The position numbers and the translations under genes are program-made. A DNA stretch of 64,000 nucleotides from Methanocellales archaeon (GTDB lineage Archaea; Halobacteriota; UBA148): contig JAQUQR010000002.1 in assembly GCA_028715985.1 (NCBI GenBank), forward strand, positions 207,121-271,120, written 5' to 3'. Numbering within the stretch: the first letter of the stretch is position 1; every line of letters begins with the position of its first letter. Below the pieces are notes generated by a model, which was given only the letters and a program-made list of their open reading frames with translations, ran no database searches and was not told the DNA's origin. This document shows, one piece after another, positions 30,599 through 63,462 of this stretch.

Positions 30599-31250
30599 AT
30601 GATAACTAACGAATTTGGGGAAAGTATAAAATATTATATTGAGAATGAGGATATGTCTTATCTTAAAAATTTAGCAGGAAGAATAAAAAAAATTTGGTTT
30701 TAGTAATTTTGATCCTCACGGAATAACAAGTTATTTAACTTTCAGATACCCAATTGGAAATTTAACTATGTTTGAGGATTATAAGAAAATACCTTGCTGT
30801 GCAGAGTTAAAAGACGGTAAAATTCAATATTACTGGTATCCAAAGCTTGAAAATGACGATATTGCTTTCGATAGAGCTCTTAAAAGGGTTGAAGAGTTAT
30901 TAATAAAAAGTATTGAAGGTATAACCTCGGATAAGAAAATAGCTATTCCTTTAAGCGGGGATATTGATAGTTCTTTGATATTAGCAATATGTAGAAAATT
31001 ATATCCCGATAAAAAGATTTACACATATAGCACTGGTTTTTATGGTGAGGACGAATTTGAATATTCCAGATTGGTAGCAAAAAAAAATAATTCCATACAT
31101 AAAGAAAAAGTATTGTACAAGGAGGACTTTATTGGTGAAAATTCACTGTTGAAACCCCTTATAGAGCAAAAGTGTGAGCCATTACATCCAAATAAGATCG
31201 CATTAGCCAATATATATATAAAATGGCGAAAAGTGACGGATGTGATATAG
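30599..31250 (+). pseudogene. Asparagine-synthetase-like gene lacking the amidotransferase domain, N-terminal part (frameshifted)
   Basis: ATG 30599 opens a frame (MITNEFGESIKYY...) that runs into a stop at 30701-30703. Removing one A from the A8 run at 30685-30692 joins it to the frame that continues as GFSNFDPHGITSYLTF...PIGNLTMFEDYKKIPC, the linker typical of asparagine synthetases. The PP-loop follows (PLSGDIDSSLILAI). SGD in place of the usual SGG is unusual. The frame ends at 31250, while the true continuation is the frame from 31223. No glutaminase domain precedes it, so ammonia or another protein would supply nitrogen if it were active. Confidence 0.75.
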
Positions 31251-31951
31251 CTGTCTGTGGAGAGGGTGCTGACGACATTTTTGGAGGTTATGGACAAAAT
31301 CTTAGGATGTACATAAACTATAAAAATGATAAGCCTTTTTTTAAATTCTTTTTAGATAATTATAGATATTTTAGCTTAGAAGATAGAAGCAAAATTATAA
31401 GAGATAAATATTTAGTAAATGATTTTCAATTATTGAACTCATTTTTAGATGAAAGGGAGATGCCCGAAGACATTAGAGATAAAGTTTTTTATTTTATACA
31501 GAAAGTACATACTCCAGGCCTAATAATCAGAGGTGCAAACGCTATGCGATTTAATGATATAGATATGGGTTTCCCATACACGGATATTGAACTGGTTAAT
31601 TTTGTTAATTCCTTACCTTTTGATTTTAAAGTAAATTGGAAATCAGAAAAACATAAAAAAGCTGCTAAAGAGATATATTTTAGAGATATAAGTGAAAAAA
31701 TGGATATACCTAAATATATTTTAAAGAAACTAGCAGAGAGATATATCCCACATAATGTAGTATATCGCCCAAAATACGCTTCCCCACTTCCTTTTGATAA
31801 ATGGTTCAGAGACCTTAATAAATGGGATTTAGATGAAAATATTTTTAAAACTAAGAATATTAGCGCTTTTAATGGTCGGAAAAAGTTCATGATAGTAAAT
31901 CCCAACATATTTATAGAGGTATTCAGAAAATATAAACATAAGATTAAATGA
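31223..31951 (+). pseudogene. Asparagine-synthetase-like gene, C-terminal part
   Basis: 242 residues continuing the synthetase domain: 'MAKSDGCDIAVCGEGADDIFGGYGQ' is the conserved pyrophosphate/aspartate-site segment, followed by the helical C-terminus. The preceding frame reads ...ALANIYIK into the A4 run at 31220-31223; one more A there would join both. Restoring two single-base changes yields one continuous protein. It overlaps the next gene by ATGA, showing it belonged to the same operon. Sequencing error in homopolymers or real decay cannot be told apart here. Confidence 0.75.
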
Positions 31952-33087
31952 AAAAGAAAAAAGCGATATTTTCTGGAATACTGGTAATTGCTCTTTTAGT
32001 ATCCTCCTTTTTAGGAGGGGCTTATTCACAATACAGATATGAAATATCTTCTGATTTTTCTTCTTTTATTCCTAGCGCAATCAAACATGAAATCAGAACC
32101 CCTCCATCACAAAGTGTAGATGATGTTCTTTTAAAGCTAATTGAAAAAAAACCTGCCTTTTCATATAACGGCGACTATGAAACCTTTAAAAATGATTTTG
32201 AAAGATATAAATATATCTCGTTTGGCTACCCCACAGAGTTACATCAAGAATTTTTAAACTCGGAGATGTTAGGGAATATTACAATTGATGATACGCATTA
32301 TTCTGAAGGATTGGAAATTTCCAACATTAAATTCTCTGTAATTGGAGGAGATTTGCCTGGATTAATAGTCAAAAAAAAAGATCAACCAATAGGTAAAGTT
32401 GTTATTGTAGTGCCCGGTCATCCATCAAAAAGTAATCCACTAGATGACTTGATTGATAGACATTCCTATCAAAAGGGAATAGCTGTTGAACTTGCTAAGG
32501 AGGGATATACCGTATTTGCAATGGGATTACGGGGATTTAATACACAAATGGATCATAACGATTTTAACGAAATTGCTTCAATGTATTCTCTTTCGTGGTA
32601 TGGATTTCTAACATCAGATGCATTAATATTCCGGGAGCATATATCAAAAAAATATGATGTAAAACGTGAATCCATAGGAATGATAGGTCTTTCTACTGGT
32701 GGGGGGGTGTGTTTGTTTGCATCTTCTATCGATAAGACAATACCCTATGCAATAATATGCGGGTTTTTTGGCAGTTTCAGTCATAATTTTGTATTTGAGA
32801 ATCATTGTAGGTGTGGTAGAATTCCTGACATCCTAAATTACTTTGATATGAGAGATTACTTAATCGCGAGGGCCCCAGAGAAAGTCGTGGTTATCAACGG
32901 GGAATATGATACATTTAGCCCCACAGAAGCAGAAGAACAGTTTAGACAAGTCAAAGAAGTATATAAGATGATGGACGCGGAGTCAAACGCAACGTTTTAC
33001 TCACCAAAAAATCTAGGACATGAATATGATATCCCATTAATAAAAGAAGTTTTAAAAGAACAATTTAATGAAGGATATATACTATAA
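31948..33087 (+). CDS. Membrane-anchored alpha/beta hydrolase
   Basis: 379 residues. An N-terminal signal anchor (about 4-24, KKKAIFSGILVIALLVSSFL) would place the enzyme outside the membrane. The hydrolase core has the nucleophile elbow GLSTGGG, a likely acid in 'NGEYDTFSP' and the histidine in 'LGHEYD'. It resembles acetyl-ester or dienelactone-type hydrolases. Within a glycan cluster an esterase removing acetyl groups is plausible but unproven. It overlaps the preceding frame by ATGA; its stop codon lies in a tandem duplication. Confidence 0.8.
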   Translation: MKKKKAIFSGILVIALLVSSFLGGAYSQYRYEISSDFSSFIPSAIKHEIRTPPSQSVDDVLLKLIEKKPAFSYNGDYETFKNDFERYKYISFGYPTELHQEFLNSEMLGNITIDDTHYSEGLEISNIKFSVIGGDLPGLIVKKKDQPIGKVVIVVPGHPSKSNPLDDLIDRHSYQKGIAVELAKEGYTVFAMGLRGFNTQMDHNDFNEIASMYSLSWYGFLTSDALIFREHISKKYDVKRESIGMIGLSTGGGVCLFASSIDKTIPYAIICGFFGSFSHNFVFENHCRCGRIPDILNYFDMRDYLIARAPEKVVVINGEYDTFSPTEAEEQFRQVKEVYKMMDAESNATFYSPKNLGHEYDIPLIKEVLKEQFNEGYIL

Positions 33088-33110
33088 CAGAAATATATAC
33101 TATAACAGAA
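33075..33110. repeat. 18-nt tandem duplication at convergent gene ends
   Basis: ATATATACTATAACAGAA occurs twice (33075-33092 and 33093-33110). The first copy contains the hydrolase stop TAA (33085-33087); the convergent asnB ends at 33118. Same placement as the duplications at 1567 and 7020. Confidence 0.9.
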
Positions 33111-33117
33111 GGAGATA

Positions 33118-34932
33118 TTAAAGAAATTTAGAGATATCTAAATCACTTTGTTTAATTCTCTCTCTTTCTATAAACAGCTCATTAGACAATTCAAGAGTTG
33201 TAAAAAACAATACCTGCCTTAAAGAATTATCACTGATCTCCTTTTCCCTTTTTATTTTCTGTATTAATTCCATAACTTTCTCGGATTTAACAAGTCCTTT
33301 CTTAAAGATTTGTGATTTAGACAGAATACTGTCAGCAACTTCAACAAATTCTTCTTTAAAATACCTAAATAAGGGCATGCCAAAGGGTAGTTTGACTCTA
33401 TTTGTTATTTCATCAGGAAGCATGCCTCTCATTGCTTTTTGCAAAATATACTTTTTATTATTACCATTCCATTTAAGAGCGGAAGGTATCGTCATAGCGA
33501 ATTCAACAATGTGATGATCCAAAAAAGGAACCCTAACTTCATGGGAGTACGCCATGCTTGTTCTATCAGCTCTTATCAATTGTATCCCGGGCAATTCTGT
33601 TTTTAGCTCAAATTCAAGTGCGGCATTGAGCAATTCCTCTTTATCCGCTTTTTCAAGGTAAGTACCAAACGCAGTTGCTGGTTTAAGATTGTTATCCAGA
33701 TTATTTATCAAAAAGTCTTTAAAAAATATTTTTTTTTCTAACTGTGTATTAAAAAATCCCGAAGTTATTTTATTTGCTTTCCCCTTTATCGATGATCTCC
33801 TTGTTGCCGCTTTGTATAAATAAACATCATATCGGTTATAACCAGCAAAAAGTTCATCAGAGCCGTCGCCTGCCAAATCAATAATAACTCCATTCCTATT
33901 TATACCTCTTGATAAGAAAAAACCAGAAAACACTGAGGGCCTTCCAAAAGGGCCTTCCATATACCAAACGATCTTTACTAAATTCTTCGTTAATTCTTTA
34001 AATGGCACTATAATTTCATGATGTTCTGTGTTACAATAATCTGCAACAATTCTTGCTTTATCAAGCTCATCAGATGGATCATCAAAACCAATACTAAATG
34101 TTTTAATTGGATTATCCACAATCTGACTCATAAAAGCTACAATCGAACTTGAATCAATTCCACCTGATAAAGAAGCTCCTAAGGGCACATCACTCACCAA
34201 TGTTTTCTTAACAGCTTCTTTTAAGATGATTCGTAATTTTTTAGTGAAATAATCTTCGGATTTATAGTCTACGTTCGTCTTAACCTCCCAATATTTTTTT
34301 ATGACAACTCCTTCAGAATTCAAGGTGAGTATATGCCCTGGTAAGAGCTCATATATATCTTTTAGCATAGTCTCCCCATTTATGCAATAGGCATATGTAA
34401 TGAATTGGCTAAGCCCATGTAGGTTAAGCTCTTTTTTAACAGAGTTGGTTCTCGTTATTGACTTAATTTCAGAGCCAAAAATAAATTTTTTGTCTTTGTA
34501 ATGATAAAACAACGGTTTAATGCCTAATCTGTCTCTTGCTAATATTATTTTCCTATTAATAGAATCCCATAGTGCAAATGCGAACATGCCATTGAATAAT
34601 TTAACACAATCCTCTCCATATTCTTCATAAGAATGAATTATAACTTCAGTATCTGAATTTGATTTGAATGTGTGTCTTTTTTTTAGTCCAGATTTAATCT
34701 CCTTAAAATTATATATTTCTCCATTATAAACAACCCATATTGTACCATCTTCGTTTGACATTGGCTGTCTACCGTTCTCAGTTAAATCAATAATACTCAA
34801 CCGTTTATGGCCAAGGGAAAAAAAAGAATCAGTATAAAAACCATCCTGGTCAGGACCCCTATGACTAAGTGTTGCAGCCATTTCTTTGACAAGCCGCTTA
34901 TCTTCCCAATTAAAACCACATATACCACACAT
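33118..34932 (-). CDS. asnB: Glutamine-dependent asparagine synthetase-like (AsnB family)
   Basis: 604 residues with both domains. The N-terminal glutaminase starts MCGICGF with the catalytic Cys2 after Met removal, plus SHRGPDQDG and the 'YNGEIYN' loop. The C-terminal ATP-pyrophosphatase domain has SGGIDSSSIV and 'DLAGDGSDELFAGYNRY'. Family members make asparagine, but those in glycan clusters can amidate sugar uronic acids (for example WbpS). The presence of UDP-glucose dehydrogenase in the same island makes that possible. Downstream of the dehydrogenase and nucleotidyltransferase genes on the same strand. Confidence 0.92.
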   Translation of the reverse strand: MCGICGFNWEDKRLVKEMAATLSHRGPDQDGFYTDSFFSLGHKRLSIIDLTENGRQPMSNEDGTIWVVYNGEIYNFKEIKSGLKKRHTFKSNSDTEVIIHSYEEYGEDCVKLFNGMFAFALWDSINRKIILARDRLGIKPLFYHYKDKKFIFGSEIKSITRTNSVKKELNLHGLSQFITYAYCINGETMLKDIYELLPGHILTLNSEGVVIKKYWEVKTNVDYKSEDYFTKKLRIILKEAVKKTLVSDVPLGASLSGGIDSSSIVAFMSQIVDNPIKTFSIGFDDPSDELDKARIVADYCNTEHHEIIVPFKELTKNLVKIVWYMEGPFGRPSVFSGFFLSRGINRNGVIIDLAGDGSDELFAGYNRYDVYLYKAATRRSSIKGKANKITSGFFNTQLEKKIFFKDFLINNLDNNLKPATAFGTYLEKADKEELLNAALEFELKTELPGIQLIRADRTSMAYSHEVRVPFLDHHIVEFAMTIPSALKWNGNNKKYILQKAMRGMLPDEITNRVKLPFGMPLFRYFKEEFVEVADSILSKSQIFKKGLVKSEKVMELIQKIKREKEISDNSLRQVLFFTTLELSNELFIERERIKQSDLDISKFL

Positions 34933-34980
34933 TTTAATTAGTAAACTCTTAATGCCTTCTCCACTCCATACCGACCGAAA

Positions 34981-36042
34981 CTAACTTATTTTTATCAGAA
35001 TTTTTATGGATCGTAAAGGATTAAAAGCCATTTCTATTGCTTTATTAATCTCCTCTAAATTAAAGGTGTGAGTTATCATGTCTTTTACATTAATCTTTCT
35101 TGAAAAAATTAATTCCGCAGATTTGTCATGTAAACTATAATCAGAGGAGTAACTCCCGATTATATCAATCTCTTTATTAGAAACCAGATTTGGATCAATC
35201 ACCACTTCTTTATCTTTTATTTTATCAAAGACAAAGATAATATCTCCTCCTCTATCAATAGCATCTAAACCCTGTTTAACAGCACTAAGAGATTCTACCG
35301 CAACTAAGCACTTATTTGCATCCCTCCCGTTATTAAATTTTCTAATTTTTTCGACAAAGGAGGGATCTTCTGTGTAGATAGTGTAATCAGCTCCAAAATT
35401 TTTTGATAGGTTAAGTTTAAAATCGACTAAATCCGTTGCGATTACTGTGGCTTTTTCTATTTTACAAAGTTGGGTGAGGGTAAGACCAATAGACCCTTGT
35501 CCTAGTATTAATACGGTATCCTTTTCTGAAATATTTGCTCTCTTTATTGCTTTAAAACAACAATTCAGAGGTTCTACAAAAACAGCTTCTTCATATTTTA
35601 CATCGTCAGGTATCTTTATCAGTCCTCTTCTTGCAACTAGATTAGGTATTTTAGTATACTCTGCAAATCCACCTCCACTTGGTTTACCGTAGCCCGCTGT
35701 TGTGTCTATTTCTCCATAAGTTTCACATTGTGAATATTTTTCATTGAGACAATAGAAACACTCTAAACAAGGAACATGATGGAAAACTAAAACCCGATCC
35801 CCAACCTCAAACTTCTTTTCGCCATTCCTCCATACATTTTCTCCCACTTTTGCTATTTCTCCAACAATTTCATGACCAAAGATCCTTGGAGGATCTAATA
35901 AGTTATACACCACTTTTTTAACATCTGTTTTGCATAAGCCTACTGTTTTTGCCTTCAATAGGACTTCGTCATTGTTAATCTCTGGTATTGGTATGTCTTC
36001 AATTTCTATTTTCCCATTTCCTACATAAACTGCTGCTTTCAT
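34981..36042 (-). CDS. Zinc-dependent medium-chain dehydrogenase (threonine/sorbitol dehydrogenase-like)
   Basis: 353 residues. The catalytic zinc ligands C37 and H57-E58 are likely in 'GLCKTDVKK' and 'FGHEIVGEI'. The structural zinc loop has four cysteines in CLECFYCLNEKYSQC. The NAD(P) Rossmann motif is 'VLILGQGSIGLTL'. It oxidises or reduces an alcohol, probably a polyol or sugar. The position between a nucleotidyltransferase and an AsnB-like enzyme suggests synthesis of an unusual cyclitol or sugar precursor; that is inference. Confidence 0.88.
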   Translation of the reverse strand: MKAAVYVGNGKIEIEDIPIPEINNDEVLLKAKTVGLCKTDVKKVVYNLLDPPRIFGHEIVGEIAKVGENVWRNGEKKFEVGDRVLVFHHVPCLECFYCLNEKYSQCETYGEIDTTAGYGKPSGGGFAEYTKIPNLVARRGLIKIPDDVKYEEAVFVEPLNCCFKAIKRANISEKDTVLILGQGSIGLTLTQLCKIEKATVIATDLVDFKLNLSKNFGADYTIYTEDPSFVEKIRKFNNGRDANKCLVAVESLSAVKQGLDAIDRGGDIIFVFDKIKDKEVVIDPNLVSNKEIDIIGSYSSDYSLHDKSAELIFSRKINVKDMITHTFNLEEINKAIEMAFNPLRSIKILIKIS

Positions 36043-36075
36043 TTTTCTTATAAATTTAATAGGTCTTAAAACATT

Positions 36076-36825
36076 TTATTCTTTTCTATTGTTCTCCTCT
36101 AGCATCTTTTCAACTATTTTCTCTCCAATTTTTAAGTCATTATAGGTATCTATATCAATCCATGATAAACCTTTCGTACTTATAGGAAACACCTCTAAAT
36201 CATTCATTATTAAATTCTTTACTGCTTTTGTAAATAGTTGATCAAGAATTTTGCTGTCAACTAATCTTTTTAGTTCTTTGTAAAGCTTTGTCTTTCCTTT
36301 TGGACCAAATTTGTATAATCCTATTGCAACACCATGTGCCCTTTCAGGAGGGATTTGCTTGCTAACATCTTTGATTACGCCATTGATGATTGTAACTTTC
36401 ATTGCCTCTTCAGAAATTTCCCCTATTAAGGTATCATCAGTTGCTAAGGCAATTTCATAAGGTGATTCACTGAGATGTTGTAATATACGTTTACTAAACA
36501 AAGTGTCAGCATTTATAACAACAAAACTGTCCCCAACAACATTTTCAGCCAGCCACAACGAGTAAATGCTGTTTGTTCTATCAAAAACGGGGTTAAATAC
36601 ATATGTTACTGGAAAACCTTTATAGGTATTCCCGATTATTCCTCTAATTTTATCCCCACAGAAACCTATAACAATAACAATTTCTTGAATATTATTCTCA
36701 ACAATCCTATCCAAAATATACTCCAAAATGGTTTTATCTTTTATTTTGAGTAAACATTTAGGCAAATCTTCAGTTTGAGGCGATAACCTTGTGCCTTTGC
36801 CCGCAGCCAATAGAATAGCTTTCAT
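36076..36825 (-). CDS. Sugar/alditol-phosphate nucleotidyltransferase
   Basis: 249 residues beginning MKAILLAAGKGTRLSPQT with the signature GxGxRL...PK (LPKCLLKI). Length and lack of a C-terminal beta-helix resemble cytidylyltransferases such as LicC or phosphonate cytidylyltransferases more than RmlA. 'VVINADTLFSK' holds the metal-binding aspartate. First gene of a three-gene minus-strand unit with the dehydrogenase and asnB. A CDP-alcohol phosphotransferase gene lies nearby at 38226; a CDP-activated headgroup would link the two. Confidence 0.88.
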   Translation of the reverse strand: MKAILLAAGKGTRLSPQTEDLPKCLLKIKDKTILEYILDRIVENNIQEIVIVIGFCGDKIRGIIGNTYKGFPVTYVFNPVFDRTNSIYSLWLAENVVGDSFVVINADTLFSKRILQHLSESPYEIALATDDTLIGEISEEAMKVTIINGVIKDVSKQIPPERAHGVAIGLYKFGPKGKTKLYKELKRLVDSKILDQLFTKAVKNLIMNDLEVFPISTKGLSWIDIDTYNDLKIGEKIVEKMLEENNRKE

Positions 36826-36995
36826 TACTTGATCCCCTAAAAGGTGATTATTAGTATCTATTTAAAAAGTTTGTGCTAGAAGTTAGCACAAGAGTACTTC
36901 CGAATCCTACCTCCAACCAGGAAGGATTTTCATTTTAATCCAAAAAAGAGACCGTAAAAAGAGAGGATACACACATTTACGATGGGCAAAGGTCT

Positions 36996-37325
36996 TCAGC
37001 GAACAAGCAGACCGATTATTAACCGAGATACGGGAATGCATGGGGCGACCTCGTCAATGCCGAGTCTCTTCGGATTCGGACCCTCAAGCCCCGTAACCAG
37101 TCTGCTCAGGTATTTTTTGTCAATCCGCTTTGCCGCCTTCCGTCCATCTCGGCGACCGATGCGACGTCGTGAACATCATCTTCTCGCACAGCATGCTCAC
37201 ATAGGCCTCGAAACGTTTGGTATAGGGGCTGTATTTGTCACGAAGTTCAGATGTTCAACGCCTCGATAGCCACATCGACATCGGATCTTCCGTTCAGCGA
37301 AGAGGAGAAAGCGCTGCTTCTTTTC
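36996..37325 (-). pseudogene. Relic of an ISL3-family transposase
   Basis: Minus-strand translation gives successive pieces in different frames: ERKIRCRCGYRGVEHL, KYSPYTKRFEAYVSMLCEK, DVASVAEMDGR and AKRIDKKYLSRL followed shortly by RLGIDEVA. In order these match the layout of ISL3 transposases: zinc-binding N-terminus, RFE...LC helix, helix-turn-helix, then the first catalytic Asp in GIDE. At least two frameshifts and the loss of the C-terminal half show it is dead. GC content is clearly above the flanks. The rest of 36826-37390 holds only likely promoters (TATA-like 37344-37357 for the next gene). Confidence 0.75.
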
Positions 37326-37390
37326 CCCTCTTAATCGTGTGAAAAGTTTAAATATAAGGATAATGAAATTGATTTGGAAGAAGACATACT

Positions 37391-38242
37391 GTGAAATTTC
37401 TACTCATGATCTCAAAACAGTTGATAAAAGGGATAAAAAATCCGTGGAAAGCAATTTTATTTTTGGTAAGCACGATTTATAATATTTTTATAGATTTAAA
37501 ACATCATAAGAAATTAATTTCCGCCGAAGAGTTAAAAGAATTGGATAAAATAAAAGAACATTTAATCACAAGGACTAATATAGAGGAGCATCTAATTTTA
37601 AAAGAATTAGAAGATATAAAGAGGCAATCAATTAAGAAGACAGATATAAGTGACCATTTAGTTACTTTATTCGTTGAATCACTGAGTACAAAGCCTAGAT
37701 TGATAGTAGAACTGGGGGTGAGGGGAGGGGAGAGCACTTTTGTTTTAGAACGTGTGGCTAAATTGTGCGATTCAACACTAATTAGTGTTGACATTGAAGA
37801 TTGTTCTGATATTTCTTCCTATAAAAACTGGATATTTGTTCAAAGTGACGATATAGAATTTGCAAAGAGATTTGAAAAATGGTGTGCCAGACATGATATT
37901 CAACCAAAGATTAATGTGCTTTTTGTAGATACCAGTCATATTTTTGAGAATACAGTTCAAGAAATAGAAAATTGGTTTCCTTTCTTAAGAGAGAGATCAA
38001 AGGTTTTTTTCCACGACACAAATCTTAAAAGGCTATTTTTTAGAAGAGACGGAAGTATGGGTGTTGGACGGAATAATAAAAGAGGTGTAATTAGAGCGAT
38101 AGAGGAATATTTTGACAAAGGTTTTAATGAAAAAGAGGATTTTATTGAGCTTATAGACGGCTGGCAGATTAAACACTATGCCAATTGTAATGGTTTTACT
38201 ATATTGGAAAAAATAGAACAATCGAGTGGATATGAAAAATAA
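37391..38242 (+). CDS. SAM-dependent methyltransferase, CmcI/Methyltransf_24-like
   Basis: 283 residues. The N-terminal 95 residues are helical and charged, with a short repeated pattern ('EHLITRTNIEEHLILKELED'). The methyltransferase core has motif I 'LIVELGVRGGESTFVL', the acidic end of strand 2 'LISVDIEDCSD' and 'VLFVDTSHIFENTVQEIE', with a late DTN loop as in cephalosporin-hydroxylase-like enzymes. It probably methylates a sugar. The start is GTG 37391 or ATG 37406; neither has a strong SD. Its 3' end overlaps the next gene by 17 bases. Confidence 0.78.
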   Translation: MKFLLMISKQLIKGIKNPWKAILFLVSTIYNIFIDLKHHKKLISAEELKELDKIKEHLITRTNIEEHLILKELEDIKRQSIKKTDISDHLVTLFVESLSTKPRLIVELGVRGGESTFVLERVAKLCDSTLISVDIEDCSDISSYKNWIFVQSDDIEFAKRFEKWCARHDIQPKINVLFVDTSHIFENTVQEIENWFPFLRERSKVFFHDTNLKRLFFRRDGSMGVGRNNKRGVIRAIEEYFDKGFNEKEDFIELIDGWQIKHYANCNGFTILEKIEQSSGYEK

Positions 38243-38951
38243 AAAGCCATCGCATTTGGATATGTCGCAATTAAAGGGAGCGAAATTTCAAGATCTTCAT
38301 GCTCCTATCGTAATTAAGCTTCATAGAATAGCCAGTACGTATGTAGCAGAAAGGATAGCGAAATATACAGAAATAACACCAAACCAGATAACGCTGCTTT
38401 CATCCTTATTGATTTTAATAGCCGCGTACTTTATCTTTGTTGGAAAGTATCCATACCTTATCTTCTCTTCAATTCTTATAATATTTGCATTCTTTTTTGA
38501 TTCTATGGATGGTTCTTTAGCAAGAATCACGGGCACAGCGAGTACCTATGGAAAGTGGGTGGATATGTTTTTGGGTTTGGGTCCGTTTGCTTTGGTGATT
38601 CTCTTTTATGCGGCGATGTATGGTTTATTCCGAAATACCGGGAACTATTTAGTATGGGTTTATGGACCCTTGGGTCTTATTGCTTCGTTGATTATAGCTC
38701 TTATTTACAATACCTTTTTAAGGCTTCATACAAATGGGTTAGAGGAAATAGAGAGAGAGAAGAAGAAAAGTTCTTTTTTGACAAATTTCTATTATACCGA
38801 ATACTTTGTTTTCCACCTTTTAGCTCTTGCGTGCCTTTTTAACAGGGTAAACGAATATTTGATTTTTTGTGCGGTTTACGGCTGGATTTTCTTGATAGCA
38901 GTGTTTATAAAATTGACAAAGAAGGCACATCATCTGAAGCGATCTGAATGA
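38226..38951 (+). CDS. CDP-alcohol phosphotransferase family protein with altered active site
   Basis: 241 residues with about six membrane helices. The family motif D-x2-D-G-x2-A-R-x8-G-x3-D-x3-D is present as D92, D95, G96, A99, R100, G109 and D113, but the final aspartate, proposed catalytic base, is Gly117. Members join a CDP-activated alcohol to a second alcohol in phospholipid synthesis. Activity is uncertain here. The first 40 residues are cytoplasmic and basic. It overlaps the preceding methyltransferase gene. Confidence 0.85.
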   Translation: MDMKNKKPSHLDMSQLKGAKFQDLHAPIVIKLHRIASTYVAERIAKYTEITPNQITLLSSLLILIAAYFIFVGKYPYLIFSSILIIFAFFFDSMDGSLARITGTASTYGKWVDMFLGLGPFALVILFYAAMYGLFRNTGNYLVWVYGPLGLIASLIIALIYNTFLRLHTNGLEEIEREKKKSSFLTNFYYTEYFVFHLLALACLFNRVNEYLIFCAVYGWIFLIAVFIKLTKKAHHLKRSE

Positions 38952-39015
38952 GTGCTGGAAAAAGGAAAGGTGAAGAAAAAGTGGGTTGCATCCAAGTTAG
39001 AACATTAACTTCTTC

Positions 39016-39972
39016 TCACCCCTGAACAATCTTCTTAGTTAAAGTTGCTACTTCTTTTATCTCCTTGACATGAAACCCAAGAAAGGCAGAAGCGAGTATG
39101 TATCGCATGAAAGTTACAAATAAGAATATCCCACCAGTTATAGTAGGGTCCACGTCTATTTTGTAGAATAAATAGACAGCACTACTTTCTGTAATTCCTA
39201 ATCCTGATATAGAAACAGGAAGCATAGTAAGTATAGCGCCTATACTAGTAATTACCAATACAGCGAAAAAGGAAACGTGTACATCAAAATATAAGAACAT
39301 TAAATACTTAACAAAAGCCCCCAGCACCCATTGTCCAAAGGTGAGCGAAGCATTTAACGCAATTCTTCCTTTTCTGTGTCTCAGTAAGAACTCTAAATTA
39401 CGATAGAACCCCTCAAGAGATTTCGCGTACTTCGCTAGGAGGATATCTTGAATAAGTCTCCTGGCTCTTTTCGATCGTATCAAAAGAACACCAAGAAGTA
39501 GAAGTAATATCAGGTAGAACGTAACTTGTAATGCGGCCTCTCGTTCAAAAAAGATAAAAAAACCATAAATGGCAATCACAGAAAGGACAACATAAGTAAT
39601 TAGTTTATCCAGCACTAAAACTGCAAGGGTTTTTCCATATGAAATTTCATTTTTCTTAAAAAAATACAGCAGTGATAGATTCCCAACTTTCCCAGGGGTG
39701 AGTAGACCTAAAGCATATGTTGGCAAATAATATCTGAATGAATCGACAGCGCTAATTTCTTCCCCTAAACCACTTATCAATATTTTAATGTTGATTGAAG
39801 CCAGGAAGTAGATAAAAAGCGAGGAAAATAACACTAAGAAAACTATATAAAGGTTCATATTTGAGATAACATCTAATACTTCTGACACACCTAATTTAAG
39901 AATTAAAAAGGAAAGGATAGACACTCCTATAAAAATTCTGAAAATATCCCATATTCTTTTTTTGATTTTCAT
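39016..39972 (-). CDS. Flippase-like integral membrane protein (LPG synthase TM/UPF0104 family)
   Basis: 318 residues and about eight membrane helices, starting KKRIWDIFRIFIGVSILSFLIL. Family features include 'LLTPGKVGNLSLLYFFKK' and 'LPVSISGLGITESSAVYLF', as in the lysylphosphatidylglycerol synthetase membrane domain/DUF2 group. Members are thought to move or shield lipid-linked intermediates. Last gene of the minus-strand run 46622-39016. Confidence 0.85.
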   Translation of the reverse strand: MKIKKRIWDIFRIFIGVSILSFLILKLGVSEVLDVISNMNLYIVFLVLFSSLFIYFLASINIKILISGLGEEISAVDSFRYYLPTYALGLLTPGKVGNLSLLYFFKKNEISYGKTLAVLVLDKLITYVVLSVIAIYGFFIFFEREAALQVTFYLILLLLLGVLLIRSKRARRLIQDILLAKYAKSLEGFYRNLEFLLRHRKGRIALNASLTFGQWVLGAFVKYLMFLYFDVHVSFFAVLVITSIGAILTMLPVSISGLGITESSAVYLFYKIDVDPTITGGIFLFVTFMRYILASAFLGFHVKEIKEVATLTKKIVQG

Positions 39973-39990
39973 TTTAGTTAATTCCTTTTG

Positions 39991-41775
39991 TTACTTTGAC
40001 CTATAAACAAAATAATGATTATTGTAAGACCTTATAACTTCGGTCTCAGTTCCCACTTCCAGAACTAAGGGCAAGTTTAGTCTATGGAGAGAGACTACAT
40101 AATCCGCCTCAACAGCGCTAACATTGCCGATTTTTATTATATTATCAGTCCAGAACATCGTCCCCCACATCGCCCAATTCATTCTATCTGCATCTCGCTC
40201 ATCAAACAATATCGCCGAATTTTTAGGCGCATGATTATGTAACCATAATCCGACTTTCATTTCATCCTGAGCATCGGTGGATGCAGCATACATAACACCT
40301 GATGCCAGCATGCTGCCTGTTACAAAAAATATCAGAAGTAATGGTGCTATGCATTTCCATTTTAATGCGTTCTTTTTGGCTAAAATCAAAAAGAAGAAGG
40401 GCAATATCAATAAAAACAGTTTAATAAAGATAACATTGGGTTCGAATGACAAGACATCCATTTCATACAAACGTTGTGGTACCAAAAGTATATACGCATC
40501 AGGGGTATTAAATGCACGTATCATTGAGTTTATTGGGATAAACACCAATACCACTGAGCAAACGATAAGTGTGCCAAAAAATGGTTTAAAATCCCGTTTA
40601 GTAAATGAATCCAACCCTACTGCGCCCATGATTATAAATGCAGGTAGAATTGGATCAAGATATCTACCCATTAGATAATTACCTCCATGAAATTTGTGAT
40701 ATGCACATAATAATACAAGTGTTGTAAAAGAAACCCATGAAATTAGGATAAAGGCTTTAAGTTTTATATTCACATATGTAGTTTTATTTATTGGTTTTTG
40801 CGTTACAATTTTCCATGTTTGAAGCATAGCAAGTGCGAAAAATATTATTCCTGTTGCAAAGATGAAATATCCAATGTGCATCGCAGCCCAATAGATAAAA
40901 TCTATTATTGGAATATTTGTTGGCTGTGATCCACCATACTTAGCGATACCGCCAGCCATGCCGATAGACTCGCCCGTTAATCCATAAGATGTGAATCCAA
41001 AATAATAGCCATTCCTTAAGAGCCAAGGGAACGCAACCACAGCGGAAGATAAAAAGATGCACCACTTATCAATAAAAGCCTGGAATATTTTCCCAATTTT
41101 TATTCTTACAGTAATACCATCTTCTGGCAAAATCGTATATATACCTTTCACCAATAAAGCGAATAACAAAATAATCAATAATGCAAGACCAGGCATTCTT
41201 GTTAAAATTGATAATCCGATAAACAATCCACAAAGGATATCCCACTTTTTATCGTCTTCGATGATTGATTTCATCATAAAAAAGAGGGAGAACATGAATA
41301 ATGGATAAAACAAATTTTCACTCATTATCGTGGAAGTGAATGAGAAACTTGCAGGCAGTAAAGAGGATAAAAATGCAACAATTAAAGATTTCTTAATAGA
41401 TATAAACTCATCAGCGATCAGAAAAACCGGAATGATTATTAAAGAAGATAGAAATGCATTGATGACTTTCATTACCGGATATGCGGCAGTTATATCTCCA
41501 AATATGTAGGATATTGATAATATTACTGGATATAACGGTGGGGGATAGCCTGCGGGTACGCCCCATAACGAGAAGGTTTTAGATTCAAAAAAAGACAGTG
41601 CCATTTTTGAATATGCAGTTTCATCAGAGAAGATAAAGGGAGAAGGTATTTGCAGTACAAAAAAGATTTTTATAATGGTAACTGTTAGATAAATTAATAG
41701 TAAACTTAAAAGTAGCTCACTCGTAGTTGTTGATTTTTCAATTAAAGAGTATTTTTTTTTCAGTATAATCGTCAT
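39991..41775 (-). CDS. GT39-like membrane glycosyltransferase (PMT/ArnT type)
   Basis: 594 residues with 11-13 membrane helices. The first extracellular loop has 'FSDETAYSKMALSF', the conserved D-E of lipid-sugar-dependent GT-C enzymes, followed by 'GYPPPLYPVILSI'. A soluble C-terminal part (about 500-594) faces outside. Such enzymes take sugar from polyprenyl phosphate and act on the outer face, decorating a glycan or protein. It lies 10 bases after the upstream GT4 gene and 18 bases before the flippase-like gene. Confidence 0.85.
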   Translation of the reverse strand: MTIILKKKYSLIEKSTTTSELLLSLLLIYLTVTIIKIFFVLQIPSPFIFSDETAYSKMALSFFESKTFSLWGVPAGYPPPLYPVILSISYIFGDITAAYPVMKVINAFLSSLIIIPVFLIADEFISIKKSLIVAFLSSLLPASFSFTSTIMSENLFYPLFMFSLFFMMKSIIEDDKKWDILCGLFIGLSILTRMPGLALLIILLFALLVKGIYTILPEDGITVRIKIGKIFQAFIDKWCIFLSSAVVAFPWLLRNGYYFGFTSYGLTGESIGMAGGIAKYGGSQPTNIPIIDFIYWAAMHIGYFIFATGIIFFALAMLQTWKIVTQKPINKTTYVNIKLKAFILISWVSFTTLVLLCAYHKFHGGNYLMGRYLDPILPAFIIMGAVGLDSFTKRDFKPFFGTLIVCSVVLVFIPINSMIRAFNTPDAYILLVPQRLYEMDVLSFEPNVIFIKLFLLILPFFFLILAKKNALKWKCIAPLLLIFFVTGSMLASGVMYAASTDAQDEMKVGLWLHNHAPKNSAILFDERDADRMNWAMWGTMFWTDNIIKIGNVSAVEADYVVSLHRLNLPLVLEVGTETEVIRSYNNHYFVYRSK

Positions 41776-41785
41776 ATTTCTACAC

Positions 41786-42943
41786 TTATCTTTTCAGTAT
41801 ACCTTCATAAACCTCCAAAGTTCTTTTTGCAATATCGTCCCAAGTAAACTTTTCAGCAGTTCTCCTTGCATTCCTGCCCATCTGCTTTCTTATGCTCTCA
41901 TCCTCGATGAGTGTACTCATTTTTTTTGCTATTTCCATGACATTGGTTGGGTCATCAATCAGCAACCCGTTCTTGCCAGGTTCAACAGCATCTTCTCCGG
42001 CAGCCGTATTAGTTGTTACTACGGGCAACCCTGCAGCCATCGCTTCTACAACAGGTATTCCAAATCCTTCGTATTTTGTAGGAAAAACAAAAATATCTGC
42101 TAAATTATAATGCTTATTTAAATCTCCCTTTTTGTTATTTATAGGTCCTGTAAAGATTATGTTATTCTTGAAACCCAACTTTTCTATAAGTCCAAGATAA
42201 TCAAAAGGAATATTTTTCCCCGATCCGACAACCAGCAATTTCAGATTTGCTTTTTCTTTGTTTTTAACAATAGACAAAGATTTGATCAATTCAGTTAAAC
42301 CTTTTCGATGGAACTCTGTTGCAACAATAATAAGAACAATATCGTTCTCATATATTCCGTATTTTTGTTTCAAATCAATCAAATTTTTATCCTGCAAAGG
42401 TCTGAACTCATCCAAATTCACACCCAAGGGAATAACTTCAATGTCTTCTTTTGGGACATTATAATACTTCATAAGTTCACGTTTAGTAGAAGAAGAACAT
42501 GCTATCAATTTCTTGTATTTTCTTTTACCATAACTATATTTTTCTAATGCTAAAACAATCAAATTACCTGGGGTTAATATTTTTCTACCAAAGATGGTTC
42601 TCCACTTCTCTTTTTTCAATACTTCCAGCCATGCTTTGTGTATACTCATGGTATTAATTATATCCGCAGAAAAGCGATCTGCACCATTAGATTGAACTAT
42701 ATCAAAATCGTGCACTTTTATGTTTAAGGTTGTTGAGAAAAGATATGAGAGGATAAATATGCTAGGGGGTTTTGGTATCGACATAGTTTTATGAAATACC
42801 AAATTATCGTCTCCAACATCTTTCCATTCAGACGAGAAGATATGAACTTCATGATCTTTCACGAAACGTTCAGCTAATTCTGAAACATATCTTGATATAC
42901 CACCTTCTTTACTGTAACCAGATACGGTCATCGCTATTTTCAT
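41786..42943 (-). CDS. GT4-family glycosyltransferase
   Basis: 385 residues from ATG 42943 (MKIAMTVSGYSKEGGISRYV), preceded by GGTGA four bases upstream; a longer frame from 42970 would overlap the upstream gene. C-terminal donor motifs include 'VATEFHRKGLTELIKSL' and 'YEGFGIPVVEAMAAGLPVVTTN'. Resembles mannosyl- or glucosyltransferases of exopolysaccharide clusters; substrate unknown. Confidence 0.92.
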   Translation of the reverse strand: MKIAMTVSGYSKEGGISRYVSELAERFVKDHEVHIFSSEWKDVGDDNLVFHKTMSIPKPPSIFILSYLFSTTLNIKVHDFDIVQSNGADRFSADIINTMSIHKAWLEVLKKEKWRTIFGRKILTPGNLIVLALEKYSYGKRKYKKLIACSSSTKRELMKYYNVPKEDIEVIPLGVNLDEFRPLQDKNLIDLKQKYGIYENDIVLIIVATEFHRKGLTELIKSLSIVKNKEKANLKLLVVGSGKNIPFDYLGLIEKLGFKNNIIFTGPINNKKGDLNKHYNLADIFVFPTKYEGFGIPVVEAMAAGLPVVTTNTAAGEDAVEPGKNGLLIDDPTNVMEIAKKMSTLIEDESIRKQMGRNARRTAEKFTWDDIAKRTLEVYEGILKR

Positions 42944-42947
42944 AGTT

Positions 42948-43589
42948 TCACCTTTTCGCTTTAATAACAATACCAGTGGATAAAAACTCTTTTAAGGTTT
43001 CTTTACCAAAAACTCCTGCCTTCATGACTATCTTGAAATTGTTTATCTTTAAAAGAGTTTCAATATCTTTGTATGTGAAGTAATGCAAATGTCCGCCATC
43101 ATAGTGTTCCGTGTTATTTGAAGTTTTCGGAAACTTTCCTTTGATAACCAAATCAAATAAATGATGCCAATATCTAACATTTGGTGTTGAAATCACTACC
43201 AACCCACCTTCAATCAATACTCTATATATCTCCTTAATCAAAACTATTGGCTCAAATACATGCTCTATTACGTCTAAACAAGTAATAGCATCGAAATAAT
43301 TATCTTTAAACGGTAAATTCTCGTCGTTTAAGTTTACTTTTTTTGTTATCACACCTCTTTTCTTCGCAATTTCCAAGGCATTATCCGATATATCAACACC
43401 ATATACCTCTCGGTAATTATTTTTGGCAAAATATCCTAATGTTCCATCACCACAACCAATGTCCAAAATCCTATCACCTTTCTCAATTAATTTTAAAGCC
43501 ACGTCTACTCTTGAGTCTTTATCAATTTTGGCTCTTCCATTACCTTCACTTTGCCATATTCTTTCATATAATTTTTCTTCTATGTTCAT
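42948..43589 (-). CDS. Class I SAM-dependent methyltransferase
   Basis: 213 residues. Motif I is 'DRILDIGCGDGTLGYFA', followed by 'VYGVDISDNALEIAKKRG' and the post-motif 'FDAITCLDVIEHVFEP'. The fold matches small-molecule methyltransferases of the Methyltransf_11/23 group; a sugar O-methyltransferase is likely given the neighbours. Its start overlaps the stop of the upstream GT4 (ATGA). Confidence 0.88.
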   Translation of the reverse strand: MNIEEKLYERIWQSEGNGRAKIDKDSRVDVALKLIEKGDRILDIGCGDGTLGYFAKNNYREVYGVDISDNALEIAKKRGVITKKVNLNDENLPFKDNYFDAITCLDVIEHVFEPIVLIKEIYRVLIEGGLVVISTPNVRYWHHLFDLVIKGKFPKTSNNTEHYDGGHLHYFTYKDIETLLKINNFKIVMKAGVFGKETLKEFLSTGIVIKAKR

Positions 43590-44770
43590 TTATTCAACAC
43601 CTTTTCATACACCTCTATCGTATCCTCAACCATTTTGTCCGAACTAAATTTCTCCACAATTTTCTTTCTGGCATTTTTCCCAAGTCTGCTTGCTAACTCT
43701 TCGTTACTTAAAACCTCTAAAATTCTTTCTTTCAGTTCTTTTAAATCCCCTGGCTTAATTAAGATTCCATCTTTATTATTTTCTATTATCGTTGGTATCC
43801 CTCCAATACAAGAGGCTATAACTGGCTTCTCACAAGCCATTGCTTCTGCGGTTACTAATCCAAAACTCTCTAATCTTAATGTTGGGAACACAAAGACATC
43901 AGCTAAATTGTAATATTTAGGCAAATCTTCATTTGAAACTCTTCCAGTAAAAACAACTTTACCCAAAATATTTAATTTCATAGCCATATCCTTTAAATCT
44001 TGTAAATAAAGACCAGTTCCAACGATGAATAATTTTATATTTTTGTTCTTCTTTAGAATATCTGGGAAAACCTTTAATAGCAAGTGAAAACCTTTTTGTT
44101 TATTTATTGCCCCAACTGATATTATAACTTTCTCATCGGTTAAATTCCATTTTTCTCTTAGATGTGTAACTTCCATTGTTTTAAACTTGTTAACATCAAT
44201 ACCATTAGGGATTGCAACCAATTTTTCTTCAGAAATTTTGTATTGTTTTTTAATATCTTCTTTTAAGTCATTGCTCACTGCGATTATTTTGTTCGCTCTT
44301 TTTAATGTTATTTTATCAACCTGACTTAGTAGGATATAGGTATAATACATATAAGATGCAACAATAAAACCTTTTATTGATTTTGTATTTAATGCACTCT
44401 TTACTTCATTTAATGCAGTTCCGTGTAAAGTTACAATAAGAAATATTTTTTTATGGTAGAATTTAGCAAGTCCAAAACCAGATGTACTTTGACTATGTAC
44501 GATGTCAAACATTTCTTCTTTATTTAATTTATCAAATAATTCCGAAGATTCTTTATAAAATCTCCTTGTGCATTTTAAGGATATATCACCAACATAATAA
44601 ATCCTTAAATTTCCTTTTTCCTCTTTTTTAATTCCTTTTGGATGTTTCGTTGTTATTATTGTTACTTTATGATCTCTTTTAACTAAACCCTCAACTAACT
44701 CCTGTACATGTATTTCCATCCCACCTGTTATATGCACAGGCAAGCCATTAGCGAACATGCAGATTTTCAA
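43586..44770 (-). CDS. GT4-family glycosyltransferase
   Basis: 394 residues from TTG 44770 (L-KICMFANGLPVHITGGMEIHV). GGAGGGA lies directly upstream, overlapping the asnB stop codon; an ATG at 44836 would run 65 bases into asnB and lacks such a site. The donor-binding domain has 'VISVGAINKQKGFHLLLKV' and 'ESFGLVTAEAMACEKPVIAS'. A central hydrophobic stretch near residue 125 may contact the membrane. Confidence 0.92.
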   Translation of the reverse strand: MKICMFANGLPVHITGGMEIHVQELVEGLVKRDHKVTIITTKHPKGIKKEEKGNLRIYYVGDISLKCTRRFYKESSELFDKLNKEEMFDIVHSQSTSGFGLAKFYHKKIFLIVTLHGTALNEVKSALNTKSIKGFIVASYMYYTYILLSQVDKITLKRANKIIAVSNDLKEDIKKQYKISEEKLVAIPNGIDVNKFKTMEVTHLREKWNLTDEKVIISVGAINKQKGFHLLLKVFPDILKKNKNIKLFIVGTGLYLQDLKDMAMKLNILGKVVFTGRVSNEDLPKYYNLADVFVFPTLRLESFGLVTAEAMACEKPVIASCIGGIPTIIENNKDGILIKPGDLKELKERILEVLSNEELASRLGKNARKKIVEKFSSDKMVEDTIEVYEKVLNK

Positions 44771-44771
44771 T

Positions 44772-46622
44772 CTATCCCTCCAAATACCTTTCATACCATT
44801 TAGCCAAAACAAATAAGCCCCACAGTTTATGCGCATGCCAATGACCTGGTTTTGGAATCATCATTTTTCGAACTCTTTCTATATTCAATTTTTCATTTAT
44901 AATTTCTGAATCAGATATACTGTTAAACACAAAATCTCTGAAATCTTTGTTGCTGGACACCCAGCGCTCATGTGGTGCGATGAATCCTTTCTTCTTCCTT
45001 TTTAGTACGCTGTCCGGTAAAATATTATATTTCAAACTTGCTTTTCTCAAAATATATTTCTCAACGCCATTTTTGAGTCTCAAATTTTCTGGAATAGTAA
45101 ATGCAGTCTCCACCATGTGGTAGTCTAAAAAGGGGTGCCTACATTCTACTGCGTGAGCCATATTCATTTTATCAAAGTGAAGCATGTGAGCATCGATATA
45201 GATTTTTATATCTACATACTGACATTTATTTAATAAACCATGAATTTCTGGATTATAAAAATAATTCATAACTACATCCCTCCCATGAGTATTAAACCTA
45301 TTATCTCTTCTATAAAGCGTTTTCAATTCATCATAGGAAAACAAATCACCATTACTCAGGTAAGGTTCTTCATCAGAGATTGCTCTTAAATATTTTTTAA
45401 CTCCTTTACTCTTAGGGAGGGAAACGGGAATTAAATTAGCAACTTTTGGGAGACTTGAACAGATCGTTTTGGGTATATGTCCCCTGATTTTTTCACAAAA
45501 TACCCTATCTTTATAGCCCCCATACCCTCCAAATAATTCATCACCTCCATAGCCATAAAGAACTACCTTTATACCTTGCTTCTGTGTTTCTTTGGATAAA
45601 AAATAGTCTTTAATTTCTCCAAAATCTGCAATCGGATCGTCTAAATACCAGAAGATTTTATCAGACTCCTTCATAACCATTTCGGGATATAATATTACTT
45701 CATGATAATTTGCTCCAACGTATTCTGCCATTGCTCTCGCATAGTCCGTCTCGTCAACATCTTTATAATCAAATCCCAACGTGAATGTATCGATAGCACT
45801 CTTATAATAGATACCCATAATAGATAAAATAATACTTGAATCAATTCCTCCTGAAAGATACATACCAACTGGAACATCGCTTATCAGATGCGATTGCACT
45901 GCATCTTTTAATTTTTCCATAAGCTCTTGAGTATAATATTCTTCTGGAAAGTTATCTGGAACAAAATTTGTGATATCCCAATATTTTTTGGACGTAACCT
46001 TCCCTGCTTCACAGATAATCATATATCCAGGAAGCAATTCTTTAATACCTTTAAACAAGGTATGAGGTCCTACTGGTGCCTGAAAGAGCAGATAATCAAT
46101 TAAACCTTTATCATCAATTTCTACTGGTTTTTCTTTATATTCTAATATAGATTTTATTTCCGATGCAAAAAGCAGTTTGTTATCAAGCATCGTATAATAT
46201 AATGGACAGATTCCTAACCTATCCCGCACCAAAATTAATTTCCTTCTGTTTGAGTCCCAAAGAGCAAAAGCAAATTGGCCCCTGAGATAACGAACAAATT
46301 CCTCTTTATATTCCTCATAAAGATGAACCAATACTTCTGTATCCGAATTGGAATAAAACTTATGCTGTGATTCAAGTCTTTTTCGCAATTCCTTGTAATT
46401 AAATATTTCTCCATTTAAAATCGTCCAAATTGACTCATCCTCATTATACATTGGCTGATGTCCGCCTTTTATATCTATAATGCTTAACCTTGTATGGCCT
46501 AAGGATATGTTATTAGCTATAAAATAGCCTTCATCTTCTGGTCCACGATGTGAAAGGATACTACACATTCTTCTTAAAAGAACTTCATCTTCAAATCCAT
46601 ATATTCCACATATTCCACACAT
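44772..46622 (-). CDS. asnB: Glutamine-dependent asparagine synthetase-like (AsnB family), second complete copy
   Basis: 616 residues, complete two-domain form: MCGICGIYGF with Cys2, SHRGPEDEG, 'LNGEIFNYKEL', then SGGIDSSIILSI and 'VLYGYGGDELFGGYGGY'. It is clearly diverged from the copy at 33118-34932, so it is not a recent duplicate. It heads a six-gene run with three glycosyltransferase-type enzymes, a methyltransferase and the flippase-like protein, which suggests a product entering the glycan, for example a uronamide. The TATA box about 23-32 bases upstream predicts a leaderless mRNA. Confidence 0.92.
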   Translation of the reverse strand: MCGICGIYGFEDEVLLRRMCSILSHRGPEDEGYFIANNISLGHTRLSIIDIKGGHQPMYNEDESIWTILNGEIFNYKELRKRLESQHKFYSNSDTEVLVHLYEEYKEEFVRYLRGQFAFALWDSNRRKLILVRDRLGICPLYYTMLDNKLLFASEIKSILEYKEKPVEIDDKGLIDYLLFQAPVGPHTLFKGIKELLPGYMIICEAGKVTSKKYWDITNFVPDNFPEEYYTQELMEKLKDAVQSHLISDVPVGMYLSGGIDSSIILSIMGIYYKSAIDTFTLGFDYKDVDETDYARAMAEYVGANYHEVILYPEMVMKESDKIFWYLDDPIADFGEIKDYFLSKETQKQGIKVVLYGYGGDELFGGYGGYKDRVFCEKIRGHIPKTICSSLPKVANLIPVSLPKSKGVKKYLRAISDEEPYLSNGDLFSYDELKTLYRRDNRFNTHGRDVVMNYFYNPEIHGLLNKCQYVDIKIYIDAHMLHFDKMNMAHAVECRHPFLDYHMVETAFTIPENLRLKNGVEKYILRKASLKYNILPDSVLKRKKKGFIAPHERWVSSNKDFRDFVFNSISDSEIINEKLNIERVRKMMIPKPGHWHAHKLWGLFVLAKWYERYLEG

Positions 46623-63457: not shown

Positions 63458-63462
63458 GTCCT

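Follow-up and report, generated by a model that had tools for sequence, protein, structure and literature searches.

In a 64,000-nucleotide stretch of a Methanocellales archaeon genome (contig JAQUQR010000002.1, positions 207,121 to 271,120; hereafter the window), two complete genes of the asparagine synthetase family, AsnB1 and AsnB2, lie in an island of glycan-synthesis genes together with a broken third copy, AsnB3. The comparison of sequences suggests that AsnB1 and AsnB2 are probably glutamine-dependent amidotransferases of surface-glycan synthesis, AsnB2 acting on a hexuronic acid and AsnB1 on a CTP-activated carboxylate, with AsnB3 a decaying copy. The features on which the argument depends are the following.

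30599..31951, forward strand: AsnB3, a broken synthetase-only copy lacking the glutaminase domain, with two frame changes (PF00733 pieces; PP motif SGDID).
33118..34932, reverse strand: AsnB1, a complete enzyme of 604 aa with glutamine amidotransferase and Asn_synthase domains (Pfam, NCBIfam, catalytic columns).
44772..46622, reverse strand: AsnB2, a complete enzyme of 616 aa with the same two domains (Pfam, NCBIfam, catalytic columns).
19925..22615, reverse strand: AglB oligosaccharyltransferase (STT3, AglB_core-like, AglB_L1).
62150..63466, reverse strand: UDP-glucose/nucleotide-sugar 6-dehydrogenase (UDPGDH; PF03721/00984/03720; TIGR03026 477 bits; AglM 549, under the cut-off of 670).
61141..62169, reverse strand: sugar-1-phosphate nucleotidyltransferase adjoining the dehydrogenase (PF00483).

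The genome measures 1.5 Mb and is 96% complete, and the window is a stretch of its contig 2, which AglB marks as archaeal. From about 24 to 60 kb of the window the G+C content is 0.36, as compared to 0.44 before it, and Pfam and NCBIfam profiles identify glycosyltransferases, methyltransferases, epimerases, an aminotransferase, a flippase, nucleotidyltransferases and a UDP-glucose-dehydrogenase-family protein there. The original prediction, which had placed three asparagine-synthetase-family genes among glycosyltransferases, is thus borne out as to the setting, to which AglB and the sugar-nucleotide genes are added; two of the three genes are complete and real, while the third is broken, leaving no intact synthetase-only gene. 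The dehydrogenase is likely the source of UDP-uronic acid. Elsewhere in the genome, outside the island, PF00733 gives short and weak matches only.

Both complete enzymes score above the Pfam cut-offs for PF00733, PF13537 and PF13522. They also exceed the cut-off (267) of TIGR01536, from which the product name asparagine synthase derives, with 500 bits for AsnB1 and 478 bits for AsnB2; this model accepts all six proteins scored, including WbqG (460 bits) of Escherichia coli O121. WbqG stands here for the asnB-annotated gene of the O121 O-antigen cluster, located between wzy and two genes for family 4 glycosyltransferases (GT4), which was taken as wbqG, a name that the record itself does not carry; the name and the uronamide role come from passages of PMC7468200, and the WbpS homologues from passages of PMC6025236. 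With the AsnB-specific model NF006949 (cut-off 499 bits), AsnB1 reaches 351 and AsnB2 321 bits, both below the cut-off. The second-best NCBIfam profile is TIGR03108, of the XrtA/PEP-CTERM amidotransferase, which likewise belongs to a glycan-cluster setting; the scores of 473 (AsnB1) and 445 bits (AsnB2) remain below its cut-off of 817, as does that of WbqG itself (529 against 268 for NF006949), and do not indicate membership of this family. Escherichia coli AsnB shows the reverse order (245 for TIGR03108 and 1050 for NF006949). AsnB1 and AsnB2 therefore rank the two models as WbqG does and differ in this from true AsnB.

Residues were numbered after E. coli AsnB with the catalytic Cys as 1 (D384, R387 and E348 corresponding to D400, R403 and E364 of the human asparagine synthetase, ASNS) and compared in a set of 132 homologues drawn from open reading frames (ORFs) of 480-760 aa, short and truncated homologues being left out. 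The glutaminase columns C1, R49, N74, E76 and D98 and the synthetase columns S234, G235, G236, D238, D351, E352 and K449 are intact in both enzymes. The aspartate site is different: the pair D384/R387 is Q/R in AsnB1, H/H in AsnB2 and I/K in WbqG, as compared to D/R in E. coli AsnB, and D/R occurs in two of 133 rows. Inspection of the aspartate-binding residues thus found the full pair in neither enzyme. A computed ASNS model lets R403 contact the carboxylate of the intermediate, according to passages of PMC11615228, and the diaminopimelate-amidating enzyme of Listeria is described in part of PMC8554201 as lacking the aspartate-binding D and R, which were equated with D384/R387 by interpretation of passages in two ASNS papers. 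The E348 column holds D in AsnB1, Y in AsnB2, D in WbqG and E in E. coli AsnB; the variants E364A and E364Q of human ASNS are reported as inactive in passages of PMC6748925. Among the 132 rows, Y at E348 together with H at R387 is found in AsnB2 alone. D is the commonest residue at the E348 column (57 of 132 homologues), so that this column says little for AsnB1, and its change was no longer counted as evidence that this enzyme has lost the ability to make asparagine. Neither AsnB1 nor AsnB2 has the TT-R-A-S stretch that the E. coli and human enzymes have in common.

The AlphaFold model of AsnB2, built on a 28-sequence alignment, has a predicted local distance difference test score (pLDDT) of 88.9 and a predicted TM-score of 0.90, with the hydroxyamidotransferase TsnB9 (7ylz), E. 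coli AsnB (1ct9) and human ASNS (6gq3) as its nearest folds. The window enzymes share with the E. coli and human asparagine synthetases the domains, the catalytic Cys, the PP-loop, D351, K449 and the fold (TM-score 0.61-0.66 by query length), and differ from them in missing the NF006949 cut-off, in other aspartate-site residues and in having no TT-R-A-S stretch.

The supply of asparagine in this archaeon also suggests another role for these enzymes. PF00152, which covers the class-II Asp/Asn/Lys synthetases, yields one strong match and one below the cut-off in the genome; the strong match is a nondiscriminating AspRS (TIGR00458 648 bits, cut-off 368), the AsnRS models remaining below their cut-offs. 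GatA and GatB are adjacent and above their cut-offs, and a second GatB_N protein of GatE length lies elsewhere (GatC being outside the search). Profile searches of the 96% complete assembly gave no match to AsnRS, and none to AsnA. Among the four nearest genomes, G001 (76% complete), G003 and G004 (both 94%) contain no PF00733 match better than E 8.6e-6, the best matches to AsnB1 as query in G003 and G004 being 4.4e-7 and 2.2e-7, and G002, the fourth, has one divergent copy. Since the tRNA-dependent route is present, AsnRS has no match, the AsnB-specific scores are below cut-off and D384/R387 is altered, asparagine synthesis is an unlikely role for AsnB1 or AsnB2, which supports this side of the original prediction. 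The copy in G002 (L090:6723-8582), an AsnB-like gene of 27% identity, also lies in a glycan stretch; its E348 and D351 columns are W and E, so that it probably has no ordinary synthetase activity.

By analogy with the family, the N-terminal domain, whose catalytic residues are present, would free ammonia from glutamine, and the C-terminal PP-ATPase domain would adenylate a carboxylate with ATP, the ammonia then displacing AMP to give a primary amide. The intact glutaminase domain points to ammonia as the donor and hence to a primary amide as the product, which speaks against the amino-acid-linked sugars that had been considered alongside uronamides. AsnB2 would most likely amidate a hexuronic acid derived from the island UDPGDH, before or after its transfer to the lipid-linked N-glycan that AglB would use. 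AsnB1 would more tentatively amidate a carboxylate in a small phospho-compound, which a LicC-like enzyme may activate with CTP and an adjacent dehydrogenase may reduce or oxidize.

The gene unit of AsnB2 consists otherwise of transferases and membrane proteins.

43586..44836, reverse strand: GT4-type glycosyltransferase, the longest frame of which overlaps the AsnB2 end by 65 bp (PF00534, PF13439).
42948..43589, reverse strand: S-adenosylmethionine methyltransferase (PF13489/PF08241).
41786..42970, reverse strand: GT4-type glycosyltransferase, 73% identical to a 267-aa partial ORF of the congener G002 (PF00534, PF13439).
39991..41775, reverse strand: PMT_2 membrane glycosyltransferase-like protein (PF13231).
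39016..39972, reverse strand: LPG_synthase_TM-family membrane protein at the end of the unit (PF03706).

In the E. coli O121 O-antigen cluster the asnB gene likewise overlaps a GT4 gene. Related loci were collected in a scan of named genomes as the best 80 among the matches listed, with 20 genome stretches as a second set; neighbours were labelled by BLAST to window proteins, any match to an unlisted window protein being tagged GT4, so that single tags can be wrong (a flavin-reductase-like match in L101 was so tagged). At least two AsnB-type genes within 18 kb occur in 17 of the 80 AsnB-bearing loci (three genes in one of these) and in 2 of 20 in another set, which shows such company to be common among AsnB-bearing loci. 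Two acidobacterial loci illustrate it, L177 with three AsnB-type genes within 18 kb and L175 with at least two, perhaps three. The 19 clade relatives in the 132-row tree have glycan genes within 8 kb in 18 cases, the remaining one being on a 3.6-kb contig, a UDPGDH homologue in 5 and AglB in 4. Among the 20 genome stretches, AglB directly adjoins AsnB in 4 (L075, L077, L084 and L088; L075 is the same place as L107, a locus of Methanolobus vulcani PL 12/M), and in another 3 (L073, L074 and L087) it lies at a distance of one or two genes. In L081 and L083 a co-directional run comprises, in this order, a dehydrogenase (52 and 55% identical to the window UDPGDH), a nucleotidyltransferase, a glycosyltransferase, an epimerase, in one arrangement a further glycosyltransferase, and AsnB. 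The AsnB of these two loci is only 38-41% identical to AsnB2 and thus a distant relative. Since a UDPGDH homologue stands in the same gene run as these distant relatives in two archaeal genomes, a uronic acid is the likeliest substrate of AsnB2.

L084, L087, L088 and their relatives form a separate AsnB-type clade, from the phylum of the window archaeon, with a GQGADE motif, some members adjoining aglB, and are candidates for another group of glycan amidotransferases.

AsnB1 stands in a different unit, with gaps of 33 and 48 bp, and near a divergent pair of genes.

36076..36825, reverse strand: LicC-like nucleotidyltransferase (CT), first gene of the unit (NTP_transferase; best PDB match 1jyk, CTP:phosphocholine cytidylyltransferase, E 3e-17).
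34981..36042, reverse strand: Zn-dependent alcohol dehydrogenase (ADH) of ketose-reductase/sorbitol-dehydrogenase type, 48 bp upstream of AsnB1 (PF08240/PF00107; PDB 1e3j ketose reductase, E 3e-36).
37391..38242, forward strand: methyltransferase (Methyltransf_24), divergent from the CT unit (PF13578).
38226..38951, forward strand: CDP-alcohol phosphotransferase (PF01066, E 3e-10), 1.4 kb from the start of the AsnB1 unit.

Among the matches listed, the nearest full-length relative of AsnB1 is that of a Pacearchaeote (L101, 54%), the other 79 loci giving at most 43%; the N-terminal 368 residues alone find 52% in G087 and 48-49% in G205, G210 and G284. In L101 the AsnB gene shares 23 bp with a LicC-like gene (33% to the window CT, E 1e-47), and 1.4 kb upstream of AsnB lies a PF01066 CDP-alcohol phosphotransferase. 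CT was tagged in 3 of the 80 loci (L101, L111 and L118) and next to AsnB only in L101; a linkage of AsnB1 with the dehydrogenase elsewhere was rejected, as none of the 80 loci had a tagged ADH homologue at E 1e-12. That CT and AsnB are linked in such distantly related archaea suggests a role for AsnB1 in a CDP pathway, acting on a CDP-activated carboxylate that is not necessarily a uronic acid. The uronamide of the original prediction accordingly is plausible for AsnB2, given the UDPGDH in the gene run of its relatives, and the neighbourhood of AsnB1 argues for a CDP-activated substrate instead. AsnB1 and the LicC-like CT, with the Zn-dehydrogenase and the CDP-alcohol phosphotransferase, might tentatively be seen as a hitherto undescribed pathway for the synthesis and transfer of an amidated CDP-activated acid, placing a phospho-linked carboxamide on archaeal surface glycans or lipids in both the Halobacteriota archaeon and the Pacearchaeote, a proposal that is itself doubtful. 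The CT-AsnB1 pairing could rank as a variant if its product were found.

In LicC and phosphocholine-type systems, to which the best match of the window CT belongs, the setting differs: the genome has no match to LicD or PEP mutase, and the partners of CT here are AsnB and the Zn-ADH. LicD-type transfer was therefore rejected, as was a phosphonate pathway for the AsnB1 unit, considered from L111. That locus (L111:1-10892, a Woesearchaeote) combines a UDPGDH homologue, AsnB, a deacetylase, PEP (phosphoenolpyruvate) mutase, a thiamine pyrophosphate enzyme, an Fe-dependent ADH and a LicC-like gene, and is likely a phosphonate-decorated glycan locus in a DPANN archaeon.

The deep phylogeny was less informative. 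In the 132-row quick tree AsnB1 and AsnB2 share one archaeal group of 21 rows (support 99), whereas in the careful tree of 48 of the 133 rows, picked for spread and speed with one verified AsnB included, AsnB1 moves to the bacterial/WbqG side. WbqG groups with bacterial rows in the latter and forms no clade with AsnB1 or AsnB2 apart from other AsnB-type proteins. Of the groupings put to approximately unbiased (AU) tests, all three stood unrejected: AsnB2 joined to E. coli AsnB and L026 (p 0.446), AsnB1 with L101 joined to the same pair (p 0.168), and a joint group of AsnB1 and AsnB2 (p 0.263). The comparison with WbpS-type enzymes and true AsnB, put forward with the original prediction, hence sets neither enzyme with WbqG and leaves kinship with E. 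coli AsnB unrejected; as the placement is unstable and no grouping is rejected, the tree was dropped as the deciding test of function. A recent duplication of AsnB1 and AsnB2 was also rejected, on their identity of 38-39% and the much nearer relative of AsnB1, the joint group itself being unrejected.

AsnB3 is spread over three open segments that use two frames (30599-30703, about 30704-31250 and 31223-31951); the frame changes at an A-run near 30690 and again at an AT-run near 31220. Its PP motif, SGDID, carries Asp at what the motif reading places as the second Gly, a position at which all 133 complete homologues have Gly. Searching 59 other genomes at E 1e-8 with the C-terminal piece gave no match, and the middle piece matched, in the fetched loci, only ordinary AsnB-type proteins at no more than 36%; with matches so sparse, comparison cannot separate damage from assembly error. 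The two breaks and the lost motif residue favour decay, so that AsnB3 is taken as a decaying copy that would yield no product, and it may alternatively be a split or assembly-damaged gene.

Several observations weigh against an assignment of AsnB1 and AsnB2 to glycan amidation. The UDPGDH lies 15.5 kb from AsnB2 and outside both AsnB units, so that the dehydrogenase named in the original prediction is present in the island but distant; the neighbour labels are BLAST-based and have no matched control gene; the CT-AsnB link is found in two genomes, of which L101 shows no dehydrogenase beside the pair; and AsnB1 shifts between archaea and bacteria with WbqG according to the tree used. AsnB1 retains R387, its D at E348 is a conservative change, the AU tests leave both enzymes free to join E. 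coli AsnB, AsnRS could be missing from the 96% complete assembly, and other AsnB-type enzymes may be promiscuous, according to part of PMC8554201. The last group of points bears on the possibility that one complete enzyme, AsnB1 likelier than AsnB2, is an ordinary asparagine synthetase that lies in the glycan island by chance and supplies free asparagine. Neither AsnA nor a further long PF00733 match turned up in the genome, and TIGR01536 names both enzymes asparagine synthase, a name it would give to WbqG as well. With the tRNA-dependent route present, G003 and G004 lacking good PF00733 matches, and AsnB1 combining a sub-threshold NF006949 score with Q at D384 and no TT-R-A-S stretch, this explanation is unlikely.

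The second alternative concerns the substrate: both enzymes could amidate a non-sugar envelope carboxylate, such as a lipid head group or polyol phosphate, the UDPGDH product being used unamidated. The company of AsnB1 with CT and the Zn-ADH near a divergent CDP-alcohol phosphotransferase, the CT and PF01066 genes by its relative in L101, and the AsnB members that amidate diaminopimelate in bacterial walls, described in passages of PMC8554201, agree with it. AsnB2, on the other hand, stands in line with glycosyltransferase genes, and UDPGDH and AglB accompany its distant relatives; two unrelated substrates for the two enzymes are equally possible, and we regard this non-sugar reading as improbable. 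Coupling of a uronic acid to an amino acid or a different amine is a very improbable reaction for these enzymes: such sugars occur in archaeal N-glycans, as in the threonine-substituted uronic (mannuronic) acid of Methanococcus described in passages of PMC2952790, and AsnB3, being without a glutaminase domain, could use another amine, but the glutaminase domains of AsnB1 and AsnB2 are intact and AsnB3 is broken. Amidation in surface-glycan synthesis, with a hexuronic acid for AsnB2 and a CTP-activated carboxylate for AsnB1, remains the reading that we favour.

The uronamide systems nearest to this one are bacterial. WbqG of E. coli O121, WbpS of Pseudomonas aeruginosa O6 and Helicobacter pullorum, and PGN_1234 of Porphyromonas gingivalis are, like AsnB1 and AsnB2, two-domain AsnB-type enzymes; they are uronamide amidotransferases, and their genes lie in glycan clusters with glycosyltransferases and a nucleotide-sugar 6-dehydrogenase. 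WbqG, the sole member of its type compared, shares with the window enzymes the ranking of TIGR03108 above NF006949 and the absence of the D384/R387 pair. It differs in its identity of only 30% to them, in its bacterial clade, and in its E348 and D384/R387 residues (D and I/K, as compared to Y and H/H in AsnB2); the window enzymes are archaeal and their dehydrogenase is outside their units. As reported in passages of PMC6025236, the N-glycan of H. pullorum has a composition fitting HexNAcAN, and a wbpS mutation truncates it; passages of PMC7468200 describe conversion of glucuronamide to the acid on deletion of PGN_1234 in Porphyromonas. The Tannerella O-glycan contains a ManNAc uronamide and its cluster an asnB, for which the authors proposed an acetamidino role (passages of PMC6120980). 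The mDAP-amidating AsnB/LtsA of Gram-positive bacteria, likened by description only from parts of PMC8554201, are AsnB relatives that also amidate an envelope carboxylate, in this case of meso-diaminopimelate (mDAP), and differ in that no peptidoglycan is expected in this archaeon.

The chemistry that the original prediction called undescribed is thus only partly so, in view of the bacterial uronamides and the Methanococcus acid. Among the papers listed from an open-access library that covers few subscription journals, none described a uronamide in archaea or an AsnB-type enzyme working with AglB; the passages there that use the word uronamide concern bacteria, and PMC5198076, considered as an AglB/AsnB link, has in the passages concerned an Lrp/AsnC regulator as its subject. 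The novelty lies in the occurrence of archaeal members close to aglB, in an AsnB2 pocket that only one of 132 rows shows, and in the pairing of CT with AsnB1. If the proposed function holds, archaeal N-glycans would contain primary uronamides, which would make neutral a surface that is otherwise acidic, and uronamide-making enzymes would bear the label asparagine synthase from annotation pipelines, a label that would then also be wrong in 7 of the 20 stretches, for the AsnB-type genes close to aglB.

Two smaller features adjoin these genes in the window. Directly after AsnB3, and overlapping it by 4 bp, lies the following gene.

31948..33087, forward strand: hydrolase-like protein, intact (weak PDB match to MHETase, E 0.0065).

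It has no Pfam or NCBIfam match at E 0.001, and its sequence reads as an N-terminal membrane anchor with a serine-hydrolase look; the single-sequence structure model (pLDDT 37) is uninformative. Between the divergent CT and methyltransferase genes, the single-copy segment 36905-37340 has a G+C content of 0.495 as compared to 0.36 around it. Positions 37123-37254 on the reverse strand match the helix-turn-helix of an ISL3 transposase at 20.0 bits, below the cut-off of 27.4, another piece of the segment giving no match; the segment resembles what is left of a transposase gene, which would mark the island as decaying here.

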